A DNA stretch of 63,800 nucleotides from an uncultured Clostridia bacterium (lineage in GTDB: Bacteria > Bacillota > Clostridia > Oscillospirales > CAG-272). The stretch lies in contig CALWJT010000025.1 of the NCBI GenBank assembly GCA_944381075.1, forward strand, positions 1 through 63,800. The letters are read 5' to 3'. Shown here in pieces: positions 1 through 9,436 of this stretch (position 1 is the stretch's first letter; the number at the start of each line of letters is the position of its first letter). The notes below the pieces were generated by a model. That model did no database searches and was not told the DNA's origin. It saw only the letters and a list, made by a program, of their open reading frames with translations. Both the position numbers and the translations under genes were made by a program.

Positions 1-733
1 CGAGAAATTCATAGGTCTGCGGCTGCTCCGGTCTCGGCGTCGACTGCGGGTCGTAGACAGAGCCGGCGGGCGCGGGGCCAACCAGTCCGTACGGGGTGCT
101 GGTCGGGGAGCTGATGTTGGAAAGCGCCTGATAGATATGCGCCTCTTCCTCTGTAAACTCAGAAACATGTGTTGCCAAAACGTCAAGGATCTGCGTTTCA
201 AAACGGGATTTTTCAATCCATTGCGGGATCAGTCGTTTGGTATCCACCGTGCCGATCGCGTACTCAACGCGAACACCGCCCGAAATGTTTTTAAACGTCA
301 GCTGTCCTCCCGTCAGAGCCGCGTCTGTATAGCTTTTCAATACGGCAGAAGCGCCGGTCATCGTATCCTGATACTGAATGATGATCTGGGAGAGCAGCGC
401 CTGTCTGATCGGGTCATCATCCCCCTGAGAGGAGGAGGAGGATTCCGAGTTCACGCCGATATCATACGGATTGGAAAACAGATACTCCCCCGTCTTCAGG
501 TTCTCAAGGGCAAATTCACCGGACTGCAAATCAAAATACATCGCATATCCTGCATCCGCATCTTCATAAAGGAGCGTCATTGTGTCTACTTTTGCCTGCT
601 GAGATAAATACTCGGTTGTAGGATAAGTTGTAATATCTAAGGTAGTGGTATCATCGGCAAAAACAGGCAGGCTCACAGCAGACACAGCGAGGAGAATTGC
701 CAAAACCGCTGAAATCAATCTGAATTTTTTCAT
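1..733 (-). CDS. DUF5696-like exported protein of the sugar-ABC operon (3' part missing)
   Basis: The reading frame starts at ATG 733 with an AGGAGG-type site just upstream and stays open to the window edge, so about 244 N-terminal residues are visible and the C-terminus lies outside. Residues 1-26 form a Sec signal peptide (basic start, hydrophobic core, cleavage near VFA-DD). The mature part contains LLYEDADAGYAMYFDLQSGE and a serine-rich insert. Its start and its position as last gene behind an NHL/Yip1 protein and two permeases match my memory of DUF5696 proteins in Paenibacillus and Clostridia sugar-transport clusters. Role unknown; I infer an extracellular accessory of carbohydrate uptake. 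The family call is from memory and not searched. Confidence 0.6.
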   Translation of the reverse strand, partial: MKKFRLISAVLAILLAVSAVSLPVFADDTTTLDITTYPTTEYLSQQAKVDTMTLLYEDADAGYAMYFDLQSGEFALENLKTGEYLFSNPYDIGVNSESSSSSQGDDDPIRQALLSQIIIQYQDTMTGASAVLKSYTDAALTGGQLTFKNISGGVRVEYAIGTVDTKRLIPQWIEKSRFETQILDVLATHVSEFTEEEAHIYQALSNISSPTSTPYGLVGPAPAGSVYDPQSTPRPEQPQTYEFL

Positions 734-746
734 ATATACCTCCTGT

Positions 747-2903
747 TTATTGTGCGCGGTATGATATTTCTGTCATAAGGTTCGTGATAAAGGAAACCAT
801 CTGCTGGATGAGGTTTGTGAACAGCAAAATTATGAACAGAATAAATATCATTCCCACGATTGTAAAGAACGTAATAACAATATTGCGTCCCATCGAATAT
901 CCATGCGTCGTCATGGAGCCGAAGAAGATCAGCATACCGGCCCAAATATAAGAGATTGCCAGGAACAGTGTGATAAACTCCGCCTCGGCCAGAGACAGGA
1001 AATTCGTGCAAATCGTCGACGGGATCCCGATCAGCGGGATGGGGAGCAGCGCATAGGAAGTTGCAATAAAGATGTCCTTGAAGCTGCCCTCGCCGTCAAA
1101 CAGCGTCGTCAAGCACCAGTTCGCAATGCACCACAGGAACAGCGGGCCGAGGACCGTGATGATAGGAATAAACAGGTCTATCTTCCGTCCGCCGCCGAAT
1201 AGATAAGCGGAACCGATCATTTGATAAACGACCGAGAGAATGGTAAAGAGAACGATGCAGACAGCGCCGCGCACAGAGCCGCGCTTCTCGTGCTTCAAAT
1301 CCCAGAAGCCATCGAAGGGATGCATGATGACATGGAAGCCGTATAGGAACTCCTCCCACAGCGTCCGCTTTCCGGTTTTGATTTCTCCGGCCTTGTTTTT
1401 CTTGCCGACATACTTGAAGAACTTGGCAAGCAGGATCACCACGGCGACGACGATAACGACGATCAGCAGAATATATTTTTCAACCATTTCGCGGCGATAG
1501 CCCTGAAACGCTACAGAATAATTCTCTGTTTCATACGCCATCTTGTAGTAATCCATGGCCTGCTCGTATTCGCCCTGGCGGTACAGCGTTTTTCCGATTC
1601 CGACATAAGCGGCATCGAAGTTGATGTTTCTTCTGAGGATATCCTGCCAGTCGCTATAGGCTGTCGAATATTCACGAATATTGTTGTGATACAGCGCCTG
1701 ATCGATGACATCCCCGTAGTCTGTCCTCTTAAATACCGTAATCGAATTCATCGAGCTGTCCAGCACATAGATGTCGCTTCCCGAATACGTGATGGCAACC
1801 GGCGAAGCAAGATTTCCCAGCTGTCTTCCCTGATCACCGAAGGCAAAAAGCAGGTTGCCCTCACTGTCATAGGTGTAGATCTTGGACCGCTTGGAATCCA
1901 AGACGGACCACATACCGTTCGGCCCTAATGCAATATCGACCAGCGTAGAGGGACCGAATACCTTTCCATAGGCAGACGGATCATTTTCCATTTCCGAGCT
2001 TGTAAAGTTGACCTCACCCGCCGGCATGAAGAAGCCATTGCGTACCATGATGTCGTCGCCGCGGGGATTGAGCTGCTTGACCGGCGCATATGTGGAATCC
2101 GTCGAACCGCCGAGGATCGCGCTTTCCAGCATCTTCTCTTCCTCTTCGTCAAATACAATGGTCGCCCACAGAAGCCCATCCTCATCGATGGCTATATTCT
2201 TATACGGCGTTGAAATATAGGACTGCGTTACCACGCTCGGGAAAAGGAGACGGCGAATCCGGACCGCAAGAGAGACCGTCGTGGTCTGTGCGCCAAGGAA
2301 GCTCTGGAAAGAGCCGTCCGGATTCAAGGCGATGATACCGCTGTAGGTCGTGGAGGAGACGACATATATCATTCCGGAATCGCTGACTGCGACCGCGACC
2401 GGACGGAATACCGTATCCGAGCCCATGACATCCGCCGTCGGAGCCTCGATGATTTCCTTGAAATTCCCTTCCAGGTCAAACAATACGATCCGTGAATTCT
2501 GCCAGTCACAGACATAGATGGTATCTTCGTTGACAAACAGTCCGCGCGGATCATCAAGAGAGTCGTGGACGCCGTTTTCATTGATAAACGCACTGATCTC
2601 AAAATCAAAGACGAAAGACGAGTCGCAGACAACGACACGGTCGTTCCCCGAGTCTGAAATATAGATTTTGCCGTTATCGTCAACAAAAATATCCTGCGGA
2701 GCGTTCAAAGAAGTCTCCAAATTCATTTCATATGACGTAATGGCGGCGCTCGGCGTATACGCATGCGGAGAAATCAACGCCTCACCGTCAATCGAATACG
2801 TATACGTTTCATACGGTGCCGAGGCAGCCGAAAGCTCAAGCCCCAGCCCCGTAAGGAGGACAAGGCAGAAAACAAAACTGAAGATTCTCGATATCCGTTT
2901 CAT
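747..2903 (-). CDS. NHL-repeat / TPR / Yip1-type membrane protein
   Basis: A 718-residue protein with an unusual domain chain. Residues 1-28 are a signal peptide; 66-395 hold NHL-like beta-propeller repeats (recurring forms such as DIFVDDNGKIYISDSGNDRV and GLFVNEDTIYVCD); about 404-465 is TPR-like (AAYVGIGKTLYRQGEYEQAM); 476-497 is one membrane helix; and 518-715 is a Yip1-like domain with about five membrane helices. The propeller and TPR should therefore lie outside the cell. It sits directly downstream of two sugar permeases (18 bases after the 2922 stop) and upstream of the DUF5696-like gene, all same strand, so it is probably co-transcribed. I infer a membrane-anchored scaffold or sensor of the transport system; no enzymatic motif is visible. 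Confidence 0.75.
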   Translation of the reverse strand: MKRISRIFSFVFCLVLLTGLGLELSAASAPYETYTYSIDGEALISPHAYTPSAAITSYEMNLETSLNAPQDIFVDDNGKIYISDSGNDRVVVCDSSFVFDFEISAFINENGVHDSLDDPRGLFVNEDTIYVCDWQNSRIVLFDLEGNFKEIIEAPTADVMGSDTVFRPVAVAVSDSGMIYVVSSTTYSGIIALNPDGSFQSFLGAQTTTVSLAVRIRRLLFPSVVTQSYISTPYKNIAIDEDGLLWATIVFDEEEEKMLESAILGGSTDSTYAPVKQLNPRGDDIMVRNGFFMPAGEVNFTSSEMENDPSAYGKVFGPSTLVDIALGPNGMWSVLDSKRSKIYTYDSEGNLLFAFGDQGRQLGNLASPVAITYSGSDIYVLDSSMNSITVFKRTDYGDVIDQALYHNNIREYSTAYSDWQDILRRNINFDAAYVGIGKTLYRQGEYEQAMDYYKMAYETENYSVAFQGYRREMVEKYILLIVVIVVAVVILLAKFFKYVGKKNKAGEIKTGKRTLWEEFLYGFHVIMHPFDGFWDLKHEKRGSVRGAVCIVLFTILSVVYQMIGSAYLFGGGRKIDLFIPIITVLGPLFLWCIANWCLTTLFDGEGSFKDIFIATSYALLPIPLIGIPSTICTNFLSLAEAEFITLFLAISYIWAGMLIFFGSMTTHGYSMGRNIVITFFTIVGMIFILFIILLFTNLIQQMVSFITNLMTEISYRAQ

Positions 2904-2921
2904 CTACATATCCTCCTTTCC

Positions 2922-3797
2922 TTAATCTTTCATACCAGAGGTCGCCATTGTTTCAATGATTCGGCTCTGGCTGACAACAAATACAATGACCGGAACGATC
3001 AGCATGACAATCGCACCGGCAGCGCCGACGCCCGCACGCGCGATACCGCCCGATACAATCTGCGAGATCGCATAGTTGAAGGTCTTGAGCTGCTCGCTTT
3101 GGATATATACCGAAGAGGAGGTATTCCACAAATCCTTGAAGGAATACACGATCAATGTCAGCCATGCAGGCTTCACCATCGGCATCGCAATGGTCCAGTA
3201 GGTCCGCAGCTCACTTGAGCCGTCCAGTCTCGCCGACTCCAGAATCGTGTCGGAAACGCCGTCCACCATAAACTGACGCATAAGGAACATTCCGAGAGTT
3301 GCACCCCATGCGGGGATGATAATCGCCCAATAGGTATCCACAAGCCCCAGCGTGCTCAGCGTCAAAAAGTTTACCGTGCTGGTAACGGTCGCCGTAAACA
3401 TCAGGGAGTATTTTACCCCTGCAAACAGGATCGACCTGCCGGGGAATTTAATTTTTGAGACCGCATACGCTGCAAGCGAACCAAAAACCAAGTTTCCGAA
3501 CGTACCGACAACAGCGATGAACACCGTATTAAAAATGTATCGTGAAAACGGCACCCAGGAGGACGTCATGCTCTGGAACAGATCCGAGAAGTTGGACAGG
3601 GTCGGATTGACTACATAAAACTTAGGCGGATAATTCCAAAGCTCATCGAGAGGCTTTAAGGACTGGACAATGGCATAATACATCGGGAAAAACATGAAAA
3701 GGCCAAAGATGATAAGGAAAACCGTGATTCCGGCGTCGCCTCCCTTGGAGCGAGTCAGGACAACTTTATGATTTCGTGTTCTTAATTTTCTCGCCAT
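2922..3797 (-). CDS. Carbohydrate ABC transporter permease (MalG/UgpE class)
   Basis: Inner-membrane permease of 291 residues, one half of the importer channel. Six hydrophobic segments are evident, beginning with ITVFLIIFGLFMFFPMYYAI. The EAA-type cytoplasmic loop, which docks the ATPase, is at ESARLDGSSELRTYWTIAMP. I chose ATG 3797 over an ATG 36 bases upstream because AAGGTGG precedes it at good spacing; it begins one base after the stop of the partner permease, implying translational coupling. The substrate cannot be read from the sequence. No ATP-binding subunit is encoded nearby, which is common for sugar importers that share an MsmK/MsmX-type ATPase. Confidence 0.92.
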   Translation of the reverse strand: MARKLRTRNHKVVLTRSKGGDAGITVFLIIFGLFMFFPMYYAIVQSLKPLDELWNYPPKFYVVNPTLSNFSDLFQSMTSSWVPFSRYIFNTVFIAVVGTFGNLVFGSLAAYAVSKIKFPGRSILFAGVKYSLMFTATVTSTVNFLTLSTLGLVDTYWAIIIPAWGATLGMFLMRQFMVDGVSDTILESARLDGSSELRTYWTIAMPMVKPAWLTLIVYSFKDLWNTSSSVYIQSEQLKTFNYAISQIVSGGIARAGVGAAGAIVMLIVPVIVFVVSQSRIIETMATSGMKD

Positions 3798-3798
3798 A

Positions 3799-4761
3799 TC
3801 ATTGTCCCACCTTTGACAGCAATTTATTAACAAGCAGGTTTGCGCCGATCATGATGATAAAAAGCACCGTTGCAATCGCCGAGGAGTAACCGACCTCGAA
3901 CCGCGTCGTACCATAGTCCTGCAAATGGTGCATGATGGTGTGCGCCGCATAGTTATAGCTCGGGAAGCCGGCAAGATCGGTTACGATCTGTCCGAAGTTG
4001 AAAGACTGCGTAATGGACATAACCGCGCCGAAAAGCAGCTGCTGCTTCATATTCGGCAGGGTCACATACCAAAGCTCCTGCCACCGGTTGCGGATCCCAT
4101 CGACAGCCGCCGCCTCATACTGATCCTTTGGAATGGTTTGCAGACCGCCGATAAACGAAAGGAACGACACGCCAAGTGAAGTCCACAGCGCGACAACAAT
4201 ACAAAGCGGCATGATCCACGTTTCGTTTTGGAAGAACTGAATCGACGCCTGTATGAGGTCCAGCCGCATCAGGATGGAGTTTGCATAGCCGTACGAGTCT
4301 CCGTCAAAGATTACCTTCCAGATGACCGTCATACCGGTGGAAAGAGACGGCGCATAGAAAATCAGCGTAATGACCGCTCTTATCTTCGGAGGGAGCTCAT
4401 TGATAAACCACGCCGTAAACAGCGACAGAAAATAGGAAACAGGTCCTGTGATAACGGCAAAGATGAACGTATTTTTCACCGCAATGATAAAGATATCGTC
4501 ATCCAGGAAAAGTCTCAAATAGTTATCGATTCCCACAAACTGCGGCGCTTCAATCATATTGAAGATGGTAAGGCTGAAGAACATCGAAAGGACGACAGGC
4601 AGTACCGTAAATATGATAAAGATCAGATAGAATGGCAAGCACATGAGGTAGGCAACATAATTGCGCTTCATCTCTTTCCATGTCCACTGCCATTTTGTCA
4701 TGTCTTTGCGCGCTACCGGCTTCGGTGTCTTCTGCTTCGCTTGAACAGTGTTCTCTGACAT
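3799..4761 (-). CDS. Sugar ABC transporter permease (LplB/UgpA class)
   Basis: 320-residue permease pairing with the gene that follows. After a basic cytoplasmic N-terminus (residues 1-35) come hydrophobic segments starting at AYLMCLPFYLIFIIFTVLPV. The EAA loop reads YEAAAVDGIRNRWQELWYVT, the ATPase docking site. An AAAGGAG site precedes ATG 4761. It lies between the binding protein gene (27 bases upstream) and the second permease (1 base downstream), the standard binding protein-permease-permease order of the CUT1 family. The substrate is unknown; oligosaccharides of plant or host glycans are a guess from the glycosidases elsewhere in the window. Confidence 0.92.
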   Translation of the reverse strand: MSENTVQAKQKTPKPVARKDMTKWQWTWKEMKRNYVAYLMCLPFYLIFIIFTVLPVVLSMFFSLTIFNMIEAPQFVGIDNYLRLFLDDDIFIIAVKNTFIFAVITGPVSYFLSLFTAWFINELPPKIRAVITLIFYAPSLSTGMTVIWKVIFDGDSYGYANSILMRLDLIQASIQFFQNETWIMPLCIVVALWTSLGVSFLSFIGGLQTIPKDQYEAAAVDGIRNRWQELWYVTLPNMKQQLLFGAVMSITQSFNFGQIVTDLAGFPSYNYAAHTIMHHLQDYGTTRFEVGYSSAIATVLFIIMIGANLLVNKLLSKVGQ

Positions 4762-4788
4762 GTCCGATTTCTCCTTTACTACAATACT

Positions 4789-7700
4789 TTATCGAATAGG
4801 GATAAAAAATTCTCGGTTCAGCTCCTCGCGCTTGCGCTCAAATTCGCTGTTGATGGTCTGCGTATAATCCATCAGCGCCTCGCTGGGAACATAATCGTAG
4901 TTATACACGTTGAGCACAGCGAACTCTACATAACGAGTGATGATATAGCTTCCGGGCATTTCCGGAACGCCGACAAGGTTGTCGAAGATATTTTCGATCT
5001 CCCTTATCTCATTTGCGGACCACGACATATTGTTGAACGCATCCATGTTGGCCGTCGCATATTTTCCGGCAGGACCCAGCAGGGCGACCAGCTCGTTGGC
5101 ATATTGTCCCTGAATCTCAGAGCCCATCCACCATTTGATGAACTGGAAGCCAGCCTCATCGGTTCCGCGGGAAGCGGCATCTCTCATAATGACGGCATAG
5201 GTAACCGTAGAAGCCGCGGAATTGTTGACCGTCCCATCGTCATGCACGGTTCCCGGGATCGCGGTGAAGCCCCACAGTCCCTTGATCTCCGGTGCGAATA
5301 CCGTAAACTGATTGTAGTTTGTGATATAGTCGCCGATGAAAAGCGGCATCTCGCCTGTGCGGAAGCGGTTCGGCGCGTCATAGGTCAACGGGAAATTATA
5401 GGTCGTATAGAACGCGCAGAAGCGTGTAAACGCATCCAGCGTCACATCCTCGTCAAAGGAAATGGTCGTTCCATTATTGGAATACAGCTCACCGCCGTTT
5501 TGATAAATAAACGTGTTGAACACAGAAGGACGCTCCGTGCTCTTTCCGATTCCGACAAGATAGTTCTGGCTCGAAAGGATCGGCAGGATCGCATTGAATT
5601 CGTCCCACGTGGTCGGTACATCCAGCCCAAGCTCCGCAAAGATATCGGTCCTGTAGAACATAACATTGAAATTCTGGGTCTGAGGGATGCCGTACACCGC
5701 GATCTCCCCGTCAGGGGATCCTAAGGCAACCGTTGTCGGCACCCATGCCGATTCGTGGAAGTATCCATAGAGCTCGTCGAAGCCCTCATAATGATTGACA
5801 TCAAGCGTTGCCCCGCGCACCGCATAGTTCATCGCATCGGATGCGGTCACATCCATCATGACATCCGGACCGACGCCCGAGAAGGTCGCAGGAAGCAGCG
5901 TACCCGCAGCGACCAGCTTCAGATTAATCGAAATGCCGGGATTTTCATCCGCAAAATTTTCATCGATCAGAGAGCGGATGATCTGCGTATATTCGCGGGA
6001 AGCGGTCGTCCAAACCTCTACGGTAACGATGTCCTCCCCTTCTACAGCGGAAGCAAGGGAGGCTTCATCCTCGAAGAAGCTGTAGAAGAACATCTGGATC
6101 TCATACCAAGCGCTTTCAAAGAAGTTAGCATCCGCACGAGGCATCTCTCCGCCCGCCGGCTGAATGACGAAGTAATCCAGGATCAGCGACTGCTGGCTCA
6201 GGCCATTGATCCATGTTCCAAGGTTGCCGATATAGCTCTTCAGCTGCGTGAAATTCTTGGCGATCTGTCTTTCGCTGTCCTTCGCCATTTTTTCCAGCGT
6301 ACGGGCAACGTTCTCGATCGTCGCCGTACTGGAGCTGGACTGGCCGCTCAGCTCCTGCATCTGCTCCGAAACGGCATACAGACGCTGCGCCAGCACGCCC
6401 ATCTCAGAAATCTCATCAGGAATTCTTTTATAATAGCTGTAGTCCATATACGGATCGGGATCCGAACCGGAAATCTGGAGGATCTTGATATAGATCTCAT
6501 TGATACGGGTCACACAGTCATTGACCTCCGCAATCAGATCGGCAAGATGTCCGTAGTTCACTTCCAGGCGAATCGTATGCTCGCCTTCCGAAAGATAGAA
6601 TTCAAATTCCGTCTCTCCGTCGTTCAGTGTACCCGTAGCCCATCCGCTCGCATACATGAATTCAAGATTGTTTGCCTCTTCAAAGGGGACCTCTCCGTCA
6701 AGATACAGGCGTCTTGAAACAAACAGACCCTCGGACGCACTTTGCAGATATCTCGTACCGATGGTATAAAGACCGGCCTTTCCCTCAGGAATCACAAACG
6801 TCCATTCGATCCACTGACCGAGATTCGACCACGTATAGCTGTTGCTGTTGCCGCCGATCACGTTGATCAAAGAATCCTTCGCACTCTGCGGACTGTTGAT
6901 GGCAGAGCTCTTGTCATTCTGAGGATAAATCGTTGCAGAAGAGGTAGCCGAGCTGTATTCCGCCTCCAGGAAGATGCTGAAATCCTCAGCCTTCGTATAC
7001 CCGGCGGCCTCATTCATTGCCTGATATTCCGCATAAGTAATATTGGATTCTCTTTCCCGCAGAGTGATGGTATCCAGCACCATCGGCTCTTTCTGCGCCT
7101 GCAGGGAGATGGTGTTCTCCCCCGCCTCGAGATAGAAATAAAACTCATTGTTGTAATAGCCGGTAGGGTCGCTGACCGTATAATCCATCCATTCGGGCGT
7201 CTCGATCTTCGACGGACGGCGGTCGTTTCCGCTGGCGTCCTTGTCATATTCTATACCGGTGATATTGCCGTTCTCATCGCGAACGACCGTCACCTCAGAC
7301 AGGTCCTCGGCCCACCGTTTGGTCATGATCAGATTCCGGACCTCGGAAAAAGGCACCTCTCCGTTGATCCGCAGCGTTCTTTCGATATCCGACATTTTCG
7401 ACTCGATCGGATAGTATGAAAGATCGATCGCGTAAAGTCCGGATTCCGGGACCGTGACCTTCCATGTAACCGTACCCTCGTCCGGCAGATATAAGACGTT
7501 CGTTTTGCCGTCCAGCTCCTCCAGCACCTCTGCCCCATCGGGAAGCGTAGACTGGTCGGCATCCGCCGCTTGGATCACAATCGGCTCACCTGTATAATTC
7601 GGATAACTGCCGTATCTCGCCGCATATTCCGACCACGTATCATCCGAGAGTCGTTCAATGGCTTCGGCAGTCGCGCTATTTCCACCCGATGTGCTCGCCG

Positions 7701-7797
7701 CCATCACCGGAGAAGCAAACGCACCGAGTGCAGCACCGGAAATCATTGCAACGCTGACCGTGAAAGCGATCATTCTCATCAGCTTTGAATTTCCCAT
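4789..7797 (-). CDS. Giant extracellular solute-binding protein with fused N-terminal carbohydrate-binding-like modules
   Basis: A 1002-residue binding protein, more than twice the usual 400-450. Residues 1-34 are a Sec signal (cleavage near VMA-A) with no lipobox cysteine. About 52-250 and 270-445 are two related beta-sandwich-like modules (each has an L-NGEVPF or L-DGEVPF element and an E-GENTISL or E-GEHTIRL element, like CBM6/35-type folds); 455-540 is helical with coiled-coil tendency; about 590-1002 is the type-1 solute-binding domain (VEVWTTASREYTQIIRSLID, later FYRTDIFAELGLDVPTTWDE). AGGAGG precedes the start. It is the first gene of the operon. I infer that the extra modules hold the protein on polysaccharide or cell wall while the C-terminal domain delivers sugar to the permeases. 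Confidence 0.85.
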   Translation of the reverse strand: MGNSKLMRMIAFTVSVAMISGAALGAFASPVMAASTSGGNSATAEAIERLSDDTWSEYAARYGSYPNYTGEPIVIQAADADQSTLPDGAEVLEELDGKTNVLYLPDEGTVTWKVTVPESGLYAIDLSYYPIESKMSDIERTLRINGEVPFSEVRNLIMTKRWAEDLSEVTVVRDENGNITGIEYDKDASGNDRRPSKIETPEWMDYTVSDPTGYYNNEFYFYLEAGENTISLQAQKEPMVLDTITLRERESNITYAEYQAMNEAAGYTKAEDFSIFLEAEYSSATSSATIYPQNDKSSAINSPQSAKDSLINVIGGNSNSYTWSNLGQWIEWTFVIPEGKAGLYTIGTRYLQSASEGLFVSRRLYLDGEVPFEEANNLEFMYASGWATGTLNDGETEFEFYLSEGEHTIRLEVNYGHLADLIAEVNDCVTRINEIYIKILQISGSDPDPYMDYSYYKRIPDEISEMGVLAQRLYAVSEQMQELSGQSSSSTATIENVARTLEKMAKDSERQIAKNFTQLKSYIGNLGTWINGLSQQSLILDYFVIQPAGGEMPRADANFFESAWYEIQMFFYSFFEDEASLASAVEGEDIVTVEVWTTASREYTQIIRSLIDENFADENPGISINLKLVAAGTLLPATFSGVGPDVMMDVTASDAMNYAVRGATLDVNHYEGFDELYGYFHESAWVPTTVALGSPDGEIAVYGIPQTQNFNVMFYRTDIFAELGLDVPTTWDEFNAILPILSSQNYLVGIGKSTERPSVFNTFIYQNGGELYSNNGTTISFDEDVTLDAFTRFCAFYTTYNFPLTYDAPNRFRTGEMPLFIGDYITNYNQFTVFAPEIKGLWGFTAIPGTVHDDGTVNNSAASTVTYAVIMRDAASRGTDEAGFQFIKWWMGSEIQGQYANELVALLGPAGKYATANMDAFNNMSWSANEIREIENIFDNLVGVPEMPGSYIITRYVEFAVLNVYNYDYVPSEALMDYTQTINSEFERKREELNREFFIPIR

Positions 7798-7871
7798 AGA
7801 CTTTCCTCCTATTTAAATATAGATTCATTTCCGTCAACCTATCAATGCCGTTCTGCGTGGCAACCCATAAA

Positions 7872-7890
7872 AACAGCATAAATGCTTGTT
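7872..7890. repeat. Imperfect dyad at the start of the sugar-transport transcript
   Basis: AACAGCAT and ATGCTTGTT face each other across two bases, with one bulged base. It lies just downstream of the predicted -10 box of the binding-protein promoter, where a repressor would block transcription. No regulator gene is nearby to assign it to. Confidence 0.35.
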
Positions 7891-7901
7891 GTTACCCTAA
7901 T

Positions 7902-7930
7902 ATGTTACCACTCGATGAACAAAAAATCAA
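7902..7930 (-). promoter_or_regulatory. Promoter of the sugar-transport operon
   Basis: On the minus strand TTGATT, 17 bases, then TAACAT with a TG extension. The transcript would start near 7895 and carry about 100 bases of leader. The rest of the 580-base AT-rich gap 7798-8380 holds only the mnmA terminator; I see no further gene there. Confidence 0.55.
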
Positions 7931-8234
7931 TAATTTTGTAAAGCCCTTTTTTTCTTTCTTTTACAGATCATTCATATTTGCATCCCGTCCGGCATTGCCA
8001 TGCCTGTTCCTCTTGACAGGGAGCTTTTTCCAATTCGCGCTTCTTCTCCAATAGAAGCTCAAATGCTATTTTAATATGCGTATTTTATATTTACAATATC
8101 ATTCGGCCATTCGCAAAAAAATGTTTATTTCAATTGACTTTTCATATTTTTAAATTTTTTCTGCTTCGGGCCGCTTTTTATATGTAAATATAATTTAACT
8201 TCCGGACATCTGGCAAAGCTTAGAAAGAAAAATG

Positions 8235-8380: not shown

Positions 8381-9436
8381 TTAATCAACAAAATTAGTAT
8401 CATGTGGAGTATCGATAATCCCGCCAAACAAGATCCCATCGTCCTGATAGAACACGGCGGACTGCCCCGGCGTCACCGCACGGACAGGATGCTCCAGGCA
8501 AACCTCGGCCAAATCGCCGGAAATCCGGACCGTCGCCATCTCCGGCCTTGCCGAGTAGCGTATTTTTACCTCCGCGCGCAGCTTTTCGCGATTTCCCGGC
8601 GCAAGACGCATGAAATTCAGCGAACGGCAAACAAAACGGTCCGAGAACACTGCATCCTCCTCCGACAGCGTCACCGTATTGGCGCGAGCATCGATTTTCG
8701 ATACGAACACAGGATGTCCCAGCGAAATGCCAAGTCCCTTTCGCTGGCCTATGGTATATCGAAGGATCCCCTGGTGCTCTCCCAATACCCTGCCGTTCGG
8801 ATCGACAAAGCTTCCTTTCGGGAATTTTCCCGCCGCAGCCTCGATATAAGCGGCATAGTCTCCGTCGGGAACAAAACAAATTTCCTGACTTTCCGGCGCA
8901 TCGGCAGCAGAAAGCCCCATTTCCCTCGCCCGCAGCCGAATGTCCCCTTTCATAAGCCCGTCAAGCGGAAAATGCAGCATGGAAAGCTGTTCCTGTGAAA
9001 GCCGCCACAGCACGTAGCTCTGATCCTTGCGCGGATCGGCCGCTCTTCTGATATAAAACCGGCCCGTCCGCACGTCCTTTTCCACGCCGGCATAATGACC
9101 GGTGGCAACCGCCGGAATTCTCAGCGTCTGAGCCGCCTCACACAGCGCGGCGATTTTAACATACCGATTGCAGATGACACAGGGATTCGGCGTTCTGGCC
9201 TTGGTATATTCCGAAATAAAATCCGCTATCACAATCTGCCGAAAACGCTCCGTACAGTCTACGATATGCAGCGGGACCGACAGCGCCTCAGCCGCCCGTT
9301 CGGCGCCCGCAACGTCCGTACTGCCGCTCATTCGGAGAACGGCGCCCTCGACAAAGAAGCCGCGGCGCCGCAGTTCGATCACGGCGTAGGTGCTGTCAAT
9401 CCCCCCGCTCATGCCGAGCAAAATTTTCTTTTCCAT
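8381..9436 (-). CDS. mnmA: tRNA-specific 2-thiouridylase MnmA
   Basis: 351 residues, normal family length. The enzyme adenylates U34 of Lys, Glu and Gln tRNAs and replaces O2 with sulfur from a persulfide relay. Visible marks: the PP-loop GMSGGIDSTYAV near the N-terminus, the catalytic cysteine pair in PNPCVICNRYVK (first Cys) and ESQEICFVPDGDY (second Cys), and ATGHYA. The family usually has SGGVDS; here it is SGGIDS. It is last in a minus-strand group running from rarA through rnhA (12-base gap). No cysteine desulfurase lies in the window, so the sulfur donor must be encoded elsewhere. Confidence 0.95.
   Translation of the reverse strand: MEKKILLGMSGGIDSTYAVIELRRRGFFVEGAVLRMSGSTDVAGAERAAEALSVPLHIVDCTERFRQIVIADFISEYTKARTPNPCVICNRYVKIAALCEAAQTLRIPAVATGHYAGVEKDVRTGRFYIRRAADPRKDQSYVLWRLSQEQLSMLHFPLDGLMKGDIRLRAREMGLSAADAPESQEICFVPDGDYAAYIEAAAGKFPKGSFVDPNGRVLGEHQGILRYTIGQRKGLGISLGHPVFVSKIDARANTVTLSEEDAVFSDRFVCRSLNFMRLAPGNREKLRAEVKIRYSARPEMATVRISGDLAEVCLEHPVRAVTPGQSAVFYQDDGILFGGIIDTPHDTNFVD

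Follow-up and report, generated by a model that had tools for sequence, protein, structure and literature searches.

Why would the operon of a sugar importer carry, besides a binding protein and two permeases, two further proteins that the textbook machine does without? The question is raised by the start of contig CALWJT010000025.1 (C25) from an uncultured Clostridia bacterium (Oscillospirales, CAG-272; assembly GCA_944381075.1; 2.0 Mb in 47 contigs, 94% complete), of which positions 1 to 63,800 were analysed and are called the window here. A promoter-like element and five genes lie at its edge, listed in order of transcription:

7930-7902, minus strand: promoter-like element TTGATT-N17-TAACAT, from an alignment of upstream DNA
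4789-7797, minus strand: substrate-binding protein (SBP) of 1002 amino acids (aa), SBP_bac_1 E-value 6.4e-21
3799-4761, minus strand: permease A (permA), CUT1 UgpA/MalF type by domain matches
2922-3797, minus strand: permease B (permB), CUT1 UgpE/MalG type by domain matches, with an ATG start
747-2903, minus strand: NHL/TPR/Yip1 membrane protein of 718 aa, Yip1 E-value 2.1e-15, NHL E-value 3.1e-11
2-733, minus strand: N-terminal 244 aa of a DUF5696 protein, with a signal-peptide-like start at 733; the rest is on contig C22

All five genes that a preliminary description of this DNA had joined in one unit are present and tightly spaced, with intergenic gaps of 1, 13, 18 and 27 bp and purine-rich ribosome-binding sites. 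The window's 5′ edge falls inside the DUF5696 gene, of which only the first 244 aa are present. The first 45 bases of contig C22 are identical to the start of the window, and C22 carries the frame onward for 943 aa (L002 3-2834; DUF5696 E-value 1.4e-130). By itself the 244-aa fragment had no DUF5696 or other useful Pfam or NCBIfam match; the name DUF5696-like, given earlier to this last gene, turned out to be right through the continuation. Downstream on C22 are two further CUT1-type permease genes, permC (L002 2854-3867) and permD (L002 3839-4945), typed only by PF00528 and purpose-built profiles. As these two genes follow DUF5696, the full unit has seven genes, SBP-permA-permB-NHL/TPR/Yip1-DUF5696-permC-permD. 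The C25-C22 junction is supported by the closest named relative (L066), where all seven genes are uncut and the DUF5696 protein measures 1180 aa. The operon seen in the window makes up half of this conserved seven-gene unit for sugar uptake. MalF/UgpA- and MalG/UgpE-type permeases with EAA loops are both present (found by pattern search in permB, permC and permD, and by eye in permA). None of the seven genes encodes an ATPase, in agreement with the preliminary description.

A single promoter had been proposed ahead of the unit, and the promoter-like element sits at the edge named for it. A simple promoter scan missed this element; the alignment of loci revealed a block (about 7885-7940) in which TTGATT and either TAACAT or TAGTAT stand 17 bases apart, conserved in the window and in all four other loci aligned from the genus. 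Terminator-like patterns numbered 14 in window positions 1-7800, against a shuffle mean of 7.5 (sd 2.5), and none of them fell in an intergenic gap of the unit. A hairpin 3′ of permD (L002 5006-5026) is weak, being one of two found where 2.4 were expected in shuffles.

We determined how constant this arrangement is among relatives. In the best 80 named loci out of 586 confirmed, all seven genes stood in identical order in 68 (one with permA called twice) and the remaining 12 were interrupted by contig ends, so the gene order is not due to chance. The NHL-Yip1 protein was found in 44 of 59 genomes searched, the window's own counted: 33 of 36 genomes from the window's own family and 11 of 23 from the other families in its order. 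Because of its presence in 33 of those 36, the unit may be a main oligosaccharide route in the family. A wider survey covered 398 Bacillota genomes drawn and 14 controls, with strong matches defined by an E-value below 1e-100 for DUF5696 and below 1e-80 for NHL-Yip1. Strong DUF5696 matches occurred in 37 of the 398 genomes, under 16 family labels; the same 37 had strong NHL-Yip1 matches, and all 37 had the long binding protein (represented in G160 by just its second half, where a contig ends). The DUF5696 cut-off was reached by none of the 14 controls. The families were, therefore, not found mostly apart from sugar importers, which the preliminary description had named as the outcome that would count against it, and the co-occurrence that it had suggested looking for was seen in these 37 genomes. 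This supports the view that the two extra proteins are part of a sugar importer.

Weaker matches were sorted by hand. The NHL-Yip1 search matched 72 genomes, 34 of them on the propeller part only (E-value 3e-18 or weaker), and these were set aside. The DUF5696 search matched 46 genomes, nine weakly; the weak matches scanned (L166, L167, L168, L170, L172 and L173; L171, G184 and G309 lay outside the scan) are GH13, GH129 or DUF6259 proteins, and L169, an additional weak match from a genome that also has a strong one, is GH13. Long SBPs without partner genes in G161 and G211 are on contigs of 3.8 and 4.3 kb that stop inside permA, and in six genomes (G137, G065, G112, G150, G184 and G214) the match covers just the SBP half, which for G137 sits at the edge of a 3.1 kb contig. 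A record titled Methanocorpusculum (L127) has the cassette at 47% identity and is probably a misbinned contig.

To which permeases do the extra proteins belong? Among DUF5696-anchored loci, 24 of 56 strong places were fetched. NHL and Yip1 adjoined DUF5696 in all 24 and permC/permD did so in 23, with SBP-permA-permB within the fetched stretch in 19. The NHL-DUF5696-permC-permD block comes first in L158, L161, L163 and L175, and permC-permD stands ahead of SBP in one copy of genome G045 (L054). In genome G120 an SBP-permA-permB block stands free (L188), as do NHL-DUF5696-permC-permD blocks (L151, L152 and L198), and one copy (L189) has NHL and DUF5696 directly behind SBP-permA-permB. When pairwise distances were compared over 36 loci, the split of SBP/permA/permB from NHL/DUF5696/permC/permD came out best of the 35 possible, with Yip1 left out. 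Given these block arrangements and the best distance split, NHL-Yip1 and DUF5696 seem paired with permC/permD and probably go with them, outside the window. The same evidence revises the earlier proposal that the extra proteins serve the importer in the window: permC/permD is the likelier partner than permA/permB.

The architecture of the two extra proteins gives some indication of what they may do. The parts of the NHL/TPR/Yip1 protein are:

1704-2726, minus strand: NHL beta-propeller part, predicted outside by domain match and hydropathy
1512-1709, minus strand: TPR part, predicted outside by domain match and hydropathy
831-1334, minus strand: Yip1 domain (PF04893), with the motif HPFDGFWD at 1299-1322

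The TPR_1 match (E-value 1.8e-4) is under its Pfam cut-off. Hydropathy gives five or six membrane segments past residue 540, two of them overlapping, so that the protein combines PF04893 with about five membrane helices as expected of Yip1 proteins; the profile is consistent with the outward-facing propeller and TPR on a Yip1 anchor that had been predicted. Of the 24 DUF5696-anchored loci, 12 encode NHL/TPR and Yip1 in separate, neighbouring genes and 12 in a single fused gene, which hints that the two parts work together.

For DUF5696, the predicted structure of a relative (L139), used as a stand-in for the window's protein, has a GH129 fold (glycoside hydrolase, GH) over residues 52-915, nearly the whole chain. 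It resembles the GH129 glycosidases NagBb (5wzn) and ZgGH129 (5opq) in this fold and differs from them in sequence, at 12-16% identity, and in the barrel. There is a weak sequence link between DUF5696 and GH129, and the GH129 profile PF11308 was not matched by the L002 protein, which matched only DUF5696 at E-values up to 0.001. Conservation was counted in 122 aligned DUF5696 proteins, 87 near and 35 far members, with lengths of 650-1250 aa; longer ones were left out. Within the barrel (residues 505-850), E780 alone is acidic in more than 90% of both near and far members; D674 is acidic in 97% of near and 74% of far members, and D770 in 97% and 63%. No invariant acidic pair was found in the barrel among the 122 proteins. 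In a search of open-access full text, with subscription journals and supplements outside it, no paper named DUF5696.

The binding protein of the unit is a long one. From its start it has a signal-peptide-like segment without lipobox, an N-terminal sugar-binding-like part, a helical linker, a conserved aromatic helix and the SBP domain; the last two are placed as follows:

6067-6123, minus strand: conserved aromatic-rich stretch, residues about 559-577, ahead of the SBP domain
5110-5985, minus strand: SBP_bac_1 domain, by domain match

The solved structure that best matched the SBP family profile (34 relatives) was Lin1841 (E-value 2.3e-23), and the protein is a binding protein of the sugar type that goes with a CUT1 importer. 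A lax lipobox pattern was found in nine of 120 cassette SBPs, with some start calls doubtful, and in seven of 14 neighbouring ordinary SBPs (one truncated at its start). Since half of the ordinary SBPs have no lipobox either, it is no more than an idea that the NHL protein retains the long SBP. Its own genome has three SBP_bac_1 matches: this protein, one in an operon that reads as polyamine type from its sequences, and an orphan.

The preliminary description mentioned similar clusters in Paenibacillus and knew of no described function; judged by gene order and operator, such a cluster is in print for Caldicellulosiruptor (Anaerocellum) bescii. Its xylan degradation locus (Athe_0174-0185) reads xloEFG-X-GH129-axoFGE-xynF and onward, is described as one operon that is up on xylan, and has two CUT1 transporters placed under XynR and AraR; the passages on this locus assign no transport role to X or GH129, and a way to remove genes from C. 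bescii is described there too (PMC8579813). The XynR operator of the locus has been published (PMC12285236), and we found it exactly in three of seven genomes of family f112, each time directly upstream of the unit's SBP. In one of them (G236) it occupies L185 306-325; the SBP start (476) is 150 bp further on, and the seven genes come in order from there. It was not found within three mismatches in L159/G333, G209, G261 or G399. As far as the published account goes, the C. bescii locus shares with the window's unit two CUT1 importers around X and GH129, in gene kinds and order; it differs in that an SBP and xylan enzymes follow and that it is xylan-induced, whereas no GH gene follows the window's copy. 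From gene order and operator, the two are most likely the same kind of unit, with X corresponding to NHL-Yip1 and GH129 to DUF5696.

Other known systems share some of these features. CUT1 importers that share an MsmX/MsmK ATPase likewise have an SBP, two permeases and no ATPase in the operon, with an orphan ATPase in the genome; the unit differs in having a second permease pair and two additional conserved proteins, and its SBP is long, with a binding-like part at the N terminus. YknW, the Yip1-family member of Bacillus YknWXYZ, is described as modulating ABC transporter assembly (PMC4887032). YknWXYZ, as described, also sets a Yip1-family membrane protein alongside an ABC transporter; it is an efflux system, whereas the window's unit is of the importer type. 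YknW is not known to have a propeller or TPR.

We therefore read the unit, with a probability of about 0.55, as a double CUT1 oligosaccharide uptake system with an NHL/TPR/Yip1-DUF5696 surface complex mainly at permC/permD. SBP and permA/permB would form one importer and permC/permD the other, the latter with an ordinary SBP nearby in many relatives, and a shared MsmX/MsmK-type ATPase encoded elsewhere would drive both. The surface complex would be membrane-bound: the Yip1 part may assemble or stabilise the permeases, the external propeller and TPR may keep partner proteins in place, and the arriving glycan may be held or trimmed by the GH129-fold DUF5696 protein. This reading builds on the observed gene content, gene order, conserved promoter block, co-occurrence, co-evolution and fold, and on the xylan induction and XynR control in the published account of the likely orthologous locus; the ATPase pairing, all physical contacts, the hand-over step and the substrate of the window's copy are what it would add. 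If it is true, part of Bacillota (37 of the 398 genomes drawn) has ABC sugar importers that exceed the textbook minimal machine by two constant parts without an assigned role, and a widespread, little-studied part of bacterial sugar uptake becomes testable. Several observations weigh against it. Values within and across the split differ by only about 0.08 (0.06-0.09 when leaving one locus out), with no correction for shared history. Yip1 was excluded from that test for missing values, and its distances correlate less well with the rest (0.52-0.70). In genome G300 an 8.5 kb contig ends in a propeller piece (E-value 3.8e-48), and no Yip1 or DUF5696 was found next to it; if real, this would be an exception, and it is the only possible case of one gene without the other among the 398 genomes. 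No ordinary SBP was found near the window's own copy, and the link of such SBPs to permC/permD is not clear-cut, as their positions vary. The adjacent GH families vary between copies and so point to no particular substrate for the window's copy.

Another explanation is that DUF5696 is an ordinary active GH129-type surface glycosidase with NHL-Yip1 merely as its anchor, and that transport needs neither. The GH129 fold and the weak sequence link fit this explanation, as does the gene named GH129 at the DUF5696 position in the published C. bescii operon. Against it, E780 is the sole barrel residue acidic in more than 90% of both groups, and DUF5696 is retained in operons whose nearby GHs come from quite different families; we consider an ordinary glycosidase possible but less probable. 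A further arrangement would be a monoderm SusCD-like complex, in which a Yip1-anchored propeller/TPR scaffold bridges the two CUT1 translocators and a non-catalytic GH129-fold protein is the glycan receptor for the second; this we regard as speculative and rather unlikely.

The two extra proteins might instead report which glycan enters. In Butyrivibrio fibrisolvens a histidine kinase and a response regulator lie upstream of the unit, and Reg_prop, a two-component-regulator propeller profile, matches the propeller weakly (E-value 0.05, under the cut-off). Such a sensor is improbable, given that neither protein has a signalling domain at the Pfam cut-off, that no such domain was recognised among the examined neighbours of the window's copy, and that the C. 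bescii locus is, in the published passages, under XynR and AraR. Adjacent genes tend to be co-inherited, so the extra genes could also be passengers kept by operon inertia. This is very improbable, as the same 37 genomes of 16 families carry both, including G120, where the two blocks also occur apart.

The two importers of the preferred double uptake system would need an ATPase, and the permC/permD importer a binding protein. The only OB_MalK match in the genome is a 390-aa ATPase on contig C6, closest to chain 7x0q (539 bits) and MsmX (429 bits); a MalK-type ATPase with an OB domain is thus encoded outside the unit and would be the one to power it. On C6 it is followed by a GH4-like gene (L064 6471-9541) whose nearest solved relatives are the alpha-galacturonidase LplD and 6-phospho-beta-glucosidases. 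Neighbour scans covered selected genes only, from 211 listed. In them, at least 12 of the 24 DUF5696-anchored loci proved to have one or more ordinary SBPs nearby: six loci behind permD, five ahead of the long SBP and one behind permB. Two ordinary SBPs follow the unit in B. fibrisolvens pNP243. The orphan SBP of the window's genome, lipoprotein-like and 520 aa long, lies about 25 kb down C22 (L181 10422-11984), with no permease seen beside it there; that it serves permC/permD is a guess. The genome has six permeases beyond those of the unit, which may therefore not be its sole CUT1 system. The GHs beside different copies belong to GH106, GH31, GH127, GH2, GH43, GH30, GH26 and GH35, and none was seen adjoining the window's copy. 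That these families differ suggests that the unit is a general device for many glycans, not a substrate-specific part.

A few neighbouring genes deserve mention. On a plasmid of Paenibacillus cellulosilyticus (L184 17868-27091) the unit is in an unusual catabolic setting: ugpC precedes it, and four LLM flavin-dependent oxidoreductases and two SBPs come after it, the SBPs with other genes in between. A protein encoded next to another copy of the unit (L044 1162-3483) matches WD40 and GH16 and, below threshold, also ricin-lectin. The gene upstream of the unit in the window (8381-9436) reads like a tRNA thiouridylase (MnmA), and the corresponding gene ahead of the unit in G001 (L034 17109-18230) matches tRNA_Me_trans.
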